A DNA stretch of 29,392 bases, taken from positions 1 through 29,392 of the IMG/VR virus record IMGVR_UViG_3300046491_000093; one strand, 5' to 3'. Of the stretch, positions 5,180 through 9,052 are shown piece by piece. A model generated the notes under the pieces. That model did not search any database, was not told the origin of the DNA, and saw only the letters and a list, made by a program, of their open reading frames with translations. How positions within the stretch are numbered: the first letter of the stretch is position 1; each line of letters begins with the position of its first letter. The stretch comes from a virus. The position numbers were made by a program, and so were the translations under genes.

Positions 5180-5206
5180 TAAAAAAGCCCGCACTTGGCG
5201 GGCATC
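5180..5206 (-). terminator. Intrinsic terminator of the partition operon
   Basis: Read on the minus strand this is GCCCGCC-AAGT-GCGGGC followed by TTTTTTATT. It lies 20 bp beyond the stop codon of the last gene of the leftward par operon. Confidence 0.88.
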
Positions 5207-5224: not shown

Positions 5225-5401
5225 TCAGACTATGCGGTGAATCGCATTTTCGAAATACCACGGCCCGGCGCCCCTCACTTTCTGCGACGCTTCGCTGATT
5301 GCCTCCTGTCGGCTCTCGGACGCAGCAATGATTCGTTGCTTCTCTCCCGTCACACCGTGGTAATAGATGACTTCCCATGTCGGCTGTAGATATGGCTCCA
5401 T
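5225..5401 (-). CDS. 58-residue hypothetical protein, last gene of par operon
   Basis: Reading the minus strand from 5401 gives MEPYLQPTWEVIYYHGVTG, then a helical segment (SESRQEAISEASQKV) and GPWYFENAIHRIV. It is preceded by TAGGAATTAGGC, a usable ribosome binding site, and begins 2 bp after the stop codon of the H-NS-like gene. The pattern looks like a small beta-alpha-beta fold of unknown function. Position right before the operon terminator and tight spacing support a real gene despite its size. Confidence 0.7.
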   Translation of the reverse strand: MEPYLQPTWEVIYYHGVTGEKQRIIAASESRQEAISEASQKVRGAGPWYFENAIHRIV

Positions 5402-5403
5402 GC

Positions 5404-5697
5404 CTAATTCCTATTGAGGTTTGGAATTTCCAGATAAGGCCAGTGAAACGGCGGTGGATCTGATCGTTTTTCCGGCCCTGCAGCGGGCTCTTGCGGGGCG
5501 TCGAATACCAAACCAACCTGACGAGGATCTACCGGCCTTGGCGCCGTAAATTGCTCGCGGTTCCGATCCTTAATCCAGTCCGGTTCGCGCCCCCTACCCG
5601 ACCACGTTCGTCCCGTCGACGGATCGCGGTATTTCGGGTCTACATCCTGTCGCCTGTCCCGCTGTCCGTCGCGCCTGCGAAGGTCACCGGAGCGCAC
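5404..5697 (-). CDS. Minimal H-NS-family DNA-binding protein
   Basis: A 97-residue protein built around the H-NS C-terminal DNA-binding domain: YRDPSTGRTWSGRGREPDWI matches the family signature (Y-R-D-P-x-T-G-x-T-W-x-G-R-G-R-x-P-x-W), with the minor-groove loop SGRGR. The N-terminal coiled-coil oligomerisation domain of H-NS is absent; fewer than 30 Arg/Asp-rich residues precede the motif. A Pro-rich tail of about 45 residues follows. The GTG at 5697 is preferred because GAGGGG lies about 9 bases upstream and it starts just after the RHH stop; an ATG at 5727 would overlap that gene. Being third in the par operon suggests a partner in DNA condensation, silencing or partition. Confidence 0.82.
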   Translation of the reverse strand: MRSGDLRRRDGQRDRRQDVDPKYRDPSTGRTWSGRGREPDWIKDRNREQFTAPRPVDPRQVGLVFDAPQEPAAGPEKRSDPPPFHWPYLEIPNLNRN

Positions 5698-5699
5698 AG

Positions 5700-5990
5700 T
5701 TACGCCCCTCGCTGCTTTGCCACCCACTCACGGCAAGCAGCCTCAATGATGGAAGCACGGCTACGGCCGTCGCGGAGCGAATCAAGCGAGTCGATTAGGT
5801 CTTGAGACATGGTGAGCGTTAGCGGCGTCTTACGCGCGCTCTTGCGCGCCTCAACGGGCGCGGCCTTAACAACCTCAGCATCGGGCGATGAAGGGACAGG
5901 AGCTTGCGCCGGTTCATCGACCTTCGCTTTCGACATGACGGCATCGAGAATGGACGGGTCCATGCGCTTTTTCAAGGTTTTGATTGTCAT
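5700..5990 (-). CDS. Ribbon-helix-helix partition protein (ParB/ParG-like)
   Basis: A 96-residue protein with a basic, then Ala/Pro-rich flexible N-terminal half (residues 1-50) and a C-terminal RHH fold (KTPLTLTMSQDLIDSLDSLR, then GRSRASIIEAACREWVAKQ). This is the architecture of centromere-binding partners of small ParA proteins, such as ParG of TP228, where the mobile tail stimulates ParA and the RHH dimer binds centromere and operator. It lies 34 bp downstream of parA, and that gap holds one of the repeat arrays. There is no strong ribosome binding site. The parB role is inferred from fold and context. Confidence 0.8.
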   Translation of the reverse strand: MTIKTLKKRMDPSILDAVMSKAKVDEPAQAPVPSSPDAEVVKAAPVEARKSARKTPLTLTMSQDLIDSLDSLRDGRSRASIIEAACREWVAKQRGA

Positions 5991-6028
5991 GATGTGCTGT
6001 ACGGTTATGTGATGTTATGTAATGTTAT
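5991..6028. repeat. AT-rich repeat array A between parA and its partner
   Basis: The gap between parA and the RHH gene carries TGTACGGTTAT (5998-6008) and TGTGATGTTA (6008-6017), then TGTAATGTTA. TGTGATGTTA recurs exactly at 6703-6712. The reverse complement of the first motif, ATAACCGTACA, recurs exactly in array C around 6794-6804. This suggests a second binding site for the RHH protein, as internal operator or centromere. Confidence 0.55.
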
Positions 6029-6684: not shown

Positions 6685-6700
6685 TCGATACCCCTCACAC

Positions 6701-6744
6701 GATGTGATGTTACGTTATTTGATGTACTGCAATGTAATGTAATT
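6701..6744. repeat. AT-rich repeat array B upstream of parA
   Basis: Repeated GATGT/AATGT pentamers (6701, 6706, 6721, 6731, 6736) in TGTGATGTTA, TTGATGTACTG and AATGTAATGTAA. It lies between the parA promoter candidate and the parA start, the expected place for an autoregulatory operator and centromere bound by the RHH partner. Confidence 0.6.
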
Positions 6745-6758
6745 CATATGGCACGGCC

Positions 6759-6787
6759 ATAGTATCAGCTTAAATACCATCATGCAA
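6759..6787 (-). promoter_or_regulatory. Candidate parA promoter
   Basis: On the minus strand TTGCAT (6787-6782) and TACTAT (6764-6759) are separated by exactly 17 bp, a fair sigma70 match, about 75 bp upstream of the parA start. It lies between repeat arrays B and C, which would allow autorepression by the partition proteins. Confidence 0.45.
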
Positions 6788-6838
6788 CATCATATAACCG
6801 TACATTACATCATTGTACCGTACATTACCTTACATCGA
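6781..6838. repeat. AT-rich repeat array C, centromere candidate
   Basis: Contains the direct repeat ACCGTACATTAC twice (within 6797-6829) plus ACATCATATA and TTACATCG, so the units are ACATT/ACATC, the inverse of array B. Arrays B and C thus form opposing blocks around the parA promoter candidate. This is a likely parS/parC region. Confidence 0.55.
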
Positions 6839-8473: not shown

Positions 8474-9052
8474 ATGTCTCTCGAAAAACAGCCTAACCTC
8501 AGGCGTTTGTCTTACTCGCCCGACGTGAATCCACTGGTCCAAGCGACTACCGTTCCAGTGAAGCGCCGCTACGTCAGCACGGGTCTTAAGACGGACCTGA
8601 TTGACCCGGATGGAGTGGTGCAGGGCGCAAGCGTCATTCGCACACTTGAAGAAAAGGATGATGCGGAATTTGTGAAGGTGTTCGCGGCAGGCATCGCAGC
8701 ATCGTATGACCTATCGAAGACGGCGCAAAAAGTGTTTCAGGCGGTATTGGCGGTTTATCAGGACGCGCCGATGACGGGCGGCTATGCCGATACAGTGCAC
8801 TTGGTATGGTTCAACGAAGGCCTGTCAGGTCACTCCATCGATATGAGTGAGAAGACATTCCAGCGCGGACTCAAAGAACTGCTGTCGCTCGGCTTCCTGT
8901 CGCCAAAAATGCCTAACGTCTACTGGATAAACCCGGCCCTGTTCTTCAAGGGTAACCGTGTGTTGTTCGTGCGTGAGTACCGGCGCAAGGCGAGCGAAGA
9001 TGAAAAGAACCAACTTAAAGAGGCGGTCGACAGCACGGCGAATACTGATTGA
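8474..9052 (+). CDS. repL: RepL-family plasmid replication initiator
   Basis: A 192-residue protein with the pattern of the RepL family (staphylococcal pE194-type plasmids and the lytic replicon of P1): a basic N-terminal region, an EFVKVFAAGIAASYDLSKTA helix block, a winged-helix segment (SIDMSEKTFQRGLKELLSLG followed by FLSPK) and the characteristic strand YWINPALFFKGNRVLFVREY. For P1 RepL it is known that the origin lies within the gene, so an internal origin is possible here. No clear ribosome binding site precedes the ATG, in keeping with tightly limited expression. It lies between cos and portal gene Q, where P2 has no gene, so it looks like an inserted plasmid module. Confidence 0.85.
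   Translation: MSLEKQPNLRRLSYSPDVNPLVQATTVPVKRRYVSTGLKTDLIDPDGVVQGASVIRTLEEKDDAEFVKVFAAGIAASYDLSKTAQKVFQAVLAVYQDAPMTGGYADTVHLVWFNEGLSGHSIDMSEKTFQRGLKELLSLGFLSPKMPNVYWINPALFFKGNRVLFVREYRRKASEDEKNQLKEAVDSTANTD

Follow-up and report, generated by a model that had tools for sequence, protein, structure and literature searches.

The viral DNA analysed in this work (IMG/VR record IMGVR_UViG_3300046491_000093, positions 1 to 29,392; this whole stretch of 29,392 nucleotides is called the window below) encodes, at positions 5404-5697, a 97-residue protein that is an H-NS DNA-binding domain of the Bv3F type without the oligomerisation part. By its gene content, the element appears to be a KS14-like P2-type phage-plasmid, and the gene lies in its partition (par) operon, together with genes for a ParA ATPase and a ribbon-helix-helix (RHH) protein. 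Orthologues were found in two viral contigs from different metagenomes (L007 and L008), and sequence comparison indicates that the gene, in this short form, is old, functional and constrained as a protein. It was already known that mobile elements carry halves of H-NS, as with H-NST and Ler. In the openly accessible literature, we found no description of a phage H-NS protein consisting only of the DNA-binding domain, nor of an H-NS domain in a par operon; with respect to that literature, a phage-plasmid H-NS DNA-binding domain that lacks the oligomerisation part, carries a conserved block of its own and is fixed in a par operon appears to be new.

Results

A DNA-binding domain without its oligomerisation part

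The sole Pfam match of the protein is Histone_HNS (PF00816; residues 21-44, E 1.9e-10; 40.8 bits, where the cut-off is 25.6). The protein contains the motif RTWSGRGREPDW, and GRGR is an H-NS motif of the Q/RGR type. A profile of the three homologues matched the Bv3F domain in the PDB (2l92, E 1.5e-8) and, more weakly, Ler and another virulence regulator; its relatives of known structure, as judged by sequence, are limited to these DNA-binding domains, and 2l92 is a folded 50-residue Bv3F domain by itself. In an AlphaFold2 model built from 29 sequences, the predicted local distance difference test (pLDDT) score reached about 80 over residues 21-50; the rest of the protein scored 48-63, and the block that follows the domain 57-63. 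When this model was searched against the PDB with Foldseek, the DNA-binding domains of Bv3F, Ler and H-NS took ranks 1-3 (best E 0.012, probability 1.00), and the VIA-align superposition on Bv3F was modest (Z 4.2, root-mean-square deviation 2.7, 44 aligned residues). A model from only three sequences was poor, and the fold search with it gave no matches. We regard the match as more than chance because the core is conserved in two relatives at a ratio of nonsynonymous to synonymous substitution rates (dN/dS) of 0.10 and because of the top three Foldseek matches.

The arm that precedes the domain, MRSGDLRRRDGQRDRRQDVD, has 20 residues, of which 15% are hydrophobic and 12 are charged, and its length is about the same in L007 and L008. 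In full-length H-NS proteins encoded by Burkholderiaceae plasmids and viral contigs, about 60-65 residues precede the domain, and the arm therefore cannot be the H-NS coiled coil. The preliminary description of this DNA had proposed that an oligomerisation domain is missing, and the short, mostly charged or polar arm bears this out. Of the hallmarks of the H-NS family, the protein thus has the DNA-binding domain with Q/RGR and lacks the N-terminal coiled coil. In Bv3F and the Burkholderiaceae H-NS family, the domain is nearly identical (PKYRDPxTGxTWSGRGRxPxWI) and the RGR motif is shared, but Bv3F-type proteins begin with a coiled-coil half, about 60 residues long, and stop just past the domain, whereas the 97-residue protein does neither and has a C-terminal extension of 46 residues.

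The boundaries of the open reading frame (ORF) agree to the base with those first described, and its reading as a 97-residue H-NS DNA-binding domain is confirmed by the family match and the GRGR motif. The TAA stop codon of rhh (5702-5700) is followed by CT and then by the GTG start (5697-5695); this junction reads TAACTGTG in the window and TAACCGTG in L007. A ribosome-binding sequence, GAGGGG in the window and GAGGGGG in L007, stands just 5' of this junction; the gene of L008 starts with ATG. An alternative in-frame GTG at 5727 lies inside rhh; since conservation sets in only at residue 5 of the 97-residue protein, it is less likely to be the start. A frameshift product or a longer gene was ruled out: none was found, the short form also occurs in L007 and L008, and in L007 the rhh stop codon lies directly upstream.

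Conservation and selection

Comparison of the window with L007 gives 88% identity over residues 4-71 and a dN/dS of 0.10, at a dS of about 1.2, which is near saturation. The corresponding values for whole genes are 65% for ParA (dN/dS 0.23), 37% for RHH (0.26) and 72% for the primase (0.19), and the tail past residue 71 is only 23% identical (0.70); the difference in identity between the core and ParA has a p value of 2e-4, and that between the core and the tail 3e-9. For L008, the dS of the gene is saturated and not estimable. It is the high core identity and low dN/dS at near-saturated dS that lead us to consider the gene as old, functional and constrained at the protein level. Strong purifying selection acts on the domain and on both short flanks, so that the constraint falls on three parts, namely the Arg-rich arm, the domain itself and the block APRPVDPRQVGLVFDAP. 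A DNA-level element (an RNA or a site) behind this conservation was ruled out, since synonymous sites are near saturation. The block was absent from all other H-NS proteins retrieved, and a degenerate DNA scan for its centre in 2.9 million viral contigs matched the same two relatives only. At the variable end of the protein, residues 84-97 (5404-5448) form an aromatic stretch, FHWPYLEIPNLNRN; the proteins of L007 and L008 end in YTWYGWP(V/I)YGPGIVG.

Both relatives are phage-plasmid-like, with a Rep3 initiator, a long primase, ParA and RHH. The order ParA-RHH-H-NS domain, which the preliminary description had suggested looking for in other phage-plasmids, was found in L007, and in L008 with one small gene in between; it is thus not confined to the window. 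This small gene (L008:3768-3950) is a 60-residue ORF with no assigned family. A hairpin with a T run lies directly 3' of the H-NS-domain gene in L007 and L008, and after the 58-residue gene in the window.

Rarity of the domain-only form

An H-NS-domain scan of viral contigs confirmed 144 loci, and we read the best 80 of them. Besides the two orthologues, all 78 other viral homologues among these 80 carry the N-terminal half: 73 of the 78 match the motif pattern and have at least 69 residues before RGR (lengths were counted from the first start codon and some are overestimated), and the N-terminal half is visible in the 5 with a variant motif. In 50,697 phage records, no match to the full 97-residue query had an E value below 0.01. 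When 37 phage records that share the ParA were searched whole, 5 matched, namely the window itself, the records of both orthologues, and two records with full-length H-NS. The latter (L160 1-363, in the record of L024, and L162 1-330, in that of L023) are ordinary full-length H-NS proteins near a record end, possibly host flank.

Outside viral records, a shallow search of 398 Burkholderiaceae genomes, with at most 12 candidates scored per genome, revealed no domain-only orthologue; the single match under 1e-14 was rejected as a full-length H-NS. A scan of genome contigs with just two peptide patterns from the three-phage alignment found no orthologue either. Longer plasmid tblastn matches, which extended up to residue 94, were also rejected: the five that were read (L165-L169) have no post-domain block. 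Three of them are full-length H-NS proteins of the ordinary kind; L167 is a further full-length one, which lacks annotation, and L166 has only a short unrelated stretch before the domain.

The par operon and its repeat arrays

Coordinates of the features are collected in Table 1. As previously described, the gene sits in the par operon between the RHH gene and a 58-residue ORF, with gaps of 2 nucleotides on both sides. The RHH protein matches PF01402 below the cut-off (E 0.01, 16.2 bits against 20.5) and phrog_18157 with E 4e-4, and it is 33-39% identical to the RHH proteins of KS14, FLC10, L007 and L008 (33% for KS14 and FLC10). ParA matches NF041546 (NCBIfam) over nearly its full length, below the cut-off (142 against 180 bits). 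The operon shares with small-ParA/RHH (type Ib-like) systems a small ParA that has no N-terminal helix-turn-helix and a repeat array as candidate centromere near parA; the RHH protein encoded downstream of parA is a probable counterpart of their centromere-binding protein. The par operon of KS14 (Kisquattuordecimvirus), also a P2-like plasmid phage, shares with it a 66% identical ParA, an RHH partner and repeat arrays, but its third gene encodes a hydrophobic protein of 48 residues. An H-NS domain as third gene was ruled out in FLC10 and FLC5 as well as in KS14, the proteins there being hydrophobic and 48-49 residues long; the downstream slot of the operon thus varies among relatives.

Table 1. 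Features of the par operon and of the H-NS-domain protein in the window.
Feature	Coordinates	Strand	Basis
H-NS DNA-binding-domain-only gene	5404..5697	-	97 codons, GTG start; PF00816, two orthologues and dN/dS
N-terminal Arg/Asp-rich arm, residues 1-20	5638..5697	-	Alignment and composition; no change in residues 5-20 among the three phages
Bv3F-type H-NS DNA-binding domain, residues 21-51, RGR minor-groove motif	5545..5637	-	Pfam, PDB profile, Foldseek
Conserved post-domain block, residues 52-71 (APRPVDPRQVGLVFDAPQEP)	5485..5544	-	Alignment; not found outside these phages
Variable C-terminal tail, residues 72-97, aromatic and proline-containing	5407..5484	-	dN/dS 0.70 against L007
ParA ATPase, 219 residues	6025..6684	-	phrog_164, E 7e-41; 64-66% identity to KS14, FLC5, FLC10, L007 and L008
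RHH protein, probable ParB analogue (centromere-binding partner of ParA)	5700..5990	-	PF01402, phrog_18157, identity to relatives
58-residue ORF, last gene of the operon	5225..5401	-	ATG 2 nucleotides past the H-NS-domain stop; no family match
Terminator-like hairpin and T run, operon end	5187..5203	-	2 such sites found, where shuffled sequences give 1.6 by chance
Repeat array between parA and rhh, candidate RHH site	5990..6028	.	Periodicity of 5/10/20 bp
Repeat array 5' of parA, with ~36% G+C; candidate for centromere and operator	6700..6838	.	Periodicity of 5/10/20 bp

The AT-rich arrays are real: repeats of a 10-bp type occupy both places, and the upstream one has 36% G+C against 58% for the window. 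KS14, FLC10 and FLC5 have ParA and RHH and lack the H-NS gene. Among relatives without this gene, the arrays were inspected in KS14, FLC10, L018, L026 and L034: equivalent arrays, upstream of parA and between parA and rhh, are present in KS14 and FLC10, L018 has the same layout, and L026 and L034 have partial repeats. The dominant period is 5/10/20 bp in the window, 11 in KS14 and FLC10, 6/12/18 in L008 and 13/26 in L007 (arrays compared: window 6700-6838, L007 2760-2988, L008 2590-2821, and those upstream of parA in L001 and L002). Since periods of 10, 11, 12 and 13 bp occur at one place, the spacing of the centromere seems to evolve fast. Both the repeat sequence and the RHH protein change among relatives, whereas the H-NS domain is constant. 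Moreover, most of the 67 A/T runs of at least 6 in the window lie outside the arrays, which are not special in this respect. The earlier proposal that the H-NS domain binds these arrays is weakened by the constancy of the domain and by the arrays of KS14-type relatives without the gene. The simplest reading of these sequences is that the arrays are centromere sites with RHH as their probable reader; the H-NS domain may bind there as at any AT-rich stretch, with nothing that links it to the arrays in particular.

Phage type and host context

The element has P2-like virion genes, with a gpP-type terminase and a portal, a ParA and a phage-plasmid primase (phrog_5629, E 0). KS14 lysogenises as a plasmid (PMC3091744), and by analogy we infer plasmid lysogeny for this virus of Burkholderia-type bacteria. 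The candidate replication protein of the window (8474-9052) is weakly RepL-like (E 2.5e-4), and L007 and L008 carry a Rep3 initiator; the replication module seems, from these sequences, to have been swapped within the group. Two Burkholderiaceae genomes that were examined have many H-NS-domain matches each, which makes competition for AT-rich DNA plausible. As a side observation, the host H-NS-family proteins L179, L181 and L182 (genomes L072, Paraburkholderia, and L078, Caballeronia) keep the N-terminal half and have two or three DNA-binding domains in tandem, as well as an Ala/Lys-rich tail like that of histone H1.

Discussion

By analogy with Ler and RokLS20, the protein may be a monomeric minor-groove competitor, an antisilencer co-expressed with the partition genes, and this is the reading that we tentatively favor. 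A P2-like phage-plasmid would have taken the domain from a Burkholderiaceae-type H-NS gene and fixed it near the end of its parA-rhh operon. The monomer would bind AT-rich minor grooves with the help of its Arg-rich arm, forming neither filaments nor bridges, and would compete with host H-NS-family proteins where the element is AT-rich (in the par arrays, at the par promoters and at other prophage promoters); such competition would be non-cooperative, as known for Ler. Its co-production with ParA and RHH might keep the partition and maintenance region of the plasmid prophage unsilenced and unbridged.

Competition with host H-NS is favored because natural precedents cover these steps. RokLS20, encoded on a plasmid, consists of the Rok DNA-binding domain only, and both its DNA binding and its repression in vivo have been described (PMC7074111). 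It is likewise a version of a xenogeneic silencer reduced to the DNA-binding domain on a mobile element (pLS20), but it is a Rok winged helix from Bacillus, and its fold and genetic context differ from those of the window protein. The C-terminal domain of Rok, a monomer, engages DNA with an Arg-rich N-terminal tail (PMC6212790); the arm DLRRRDGQRDRR and this tail are alike in composition only. Ler resembles H-NS only in the DNA-binding domain and displaces H-NS by non-cooperative binding (PMC7074111). It shares an H-NS-type DNA-binding domain with the window protein, but it has 123 residues with an oligomerising N-terminal part of its own, where the window protein has a 20-residue arm only, and it is not encoded in a phage-plasmid par operon. 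Another phage, EPV1 (EBPR podovirus 1), encodes a full-length H-NS (PMC3097231), in which both domains are present and which was proposed to add repression.

The preliminary description had also considered that the protein poisons host H-NS or compacts the plasmid. Natural truncations of H-NS, H-NST among them, retain the oligomerisation half and act against H-NS by forming mixed oligomers with it. H-NST is likewise a half of H-NS on a mobile element, but it is the opposite half, without the DNA-binding domain. In the window protein the interacting half is missing, and poisoning through mixed oligomers is therefore unlikely; a monomer can compete with H-NS for DNA and cannot poison it in this way. 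Compaction by bridging needs two DNA-binding units, and two are not seen in 97 residues.

Several points weigh against antisilencing. A lone DNA-binding domain binds less strongly than oligomers do, so that competition would need high expression, and Ler itself has an oligomerisation region. With about 58% G+C and few AT-rich stretches, the element is not an obvious silencing target. Finally, antisilencing leaves the invariant APRPVDPRQVGLVFDAP block unaccounted for, and this block points to a protein partner or an additional surface.

A rival possibility is that the protein is a third component of the partition complex, which would bind the AT-rich arrays beside RHH, bend or mark the centromere and contact RHH or ParA through its C-terminal block. 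The gene is encoded in a parA-rhh operon in three phages, the invariant block could be a partner-binding motif, and the upstream array is AT-rich. However, ParA and RHH, and arrays where inspected, occur without an H-NS domain in KS14, FLC5, FLC10 and other relatives. Coevolution would also predict something else than a domain conserved far better than RHH next to arrays that vary between 10 and 13 bp, and we consider this role doubtful. It is unlikely, too, that the monomeric domain and its APRPVDPRQVGLVFDAP partner motif shape or protect the centromere, or couple ParA and RHH to host chromatin; if true, this centromere-accessory reading would define a new class of partition accessory protein.

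Nor is it probable that the protein acts on its own to repress or regulate genes of the host or the phage, occupying particular AT-rich promoters in the lysogen as RokLS20 does at comK. RokLS20 is a precedent, as a domain-only plasmid protein that represses comK, but it is a winged helix of the Rok family with its own sequence preference, whereas H-NS reads AT-rich minor grooves with its RGR loop. The domain might also be an adapter that carries a partner bound via APRPVDPRQVGLVFDAP to AT-rich DNA, for instance for a counter-defence or replication function. Conservation of the block at the level of the domain and its absence from all other H-NS proteins retrieved would fit, but the block is modelled at low confidence, and we consider an adapter very unlikely. 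As for a broken or decaying full-length H-NS gene without function, the missing N-terminal half is what such a gene would show; with a short form shared by three diverged phages, purifying selection at near-saturated dS and a conserved start region, this is hardly credible.

If the protein does act as an antisilencing competitor, the H-NS recognition domain would be useful without filaments, and these phages would offer a natural test of competition alone against xenogeneic silencing. The location of the gene in the par operon would then tie the silencing of foreign DNA to the maintenance of a plasmid prophage.
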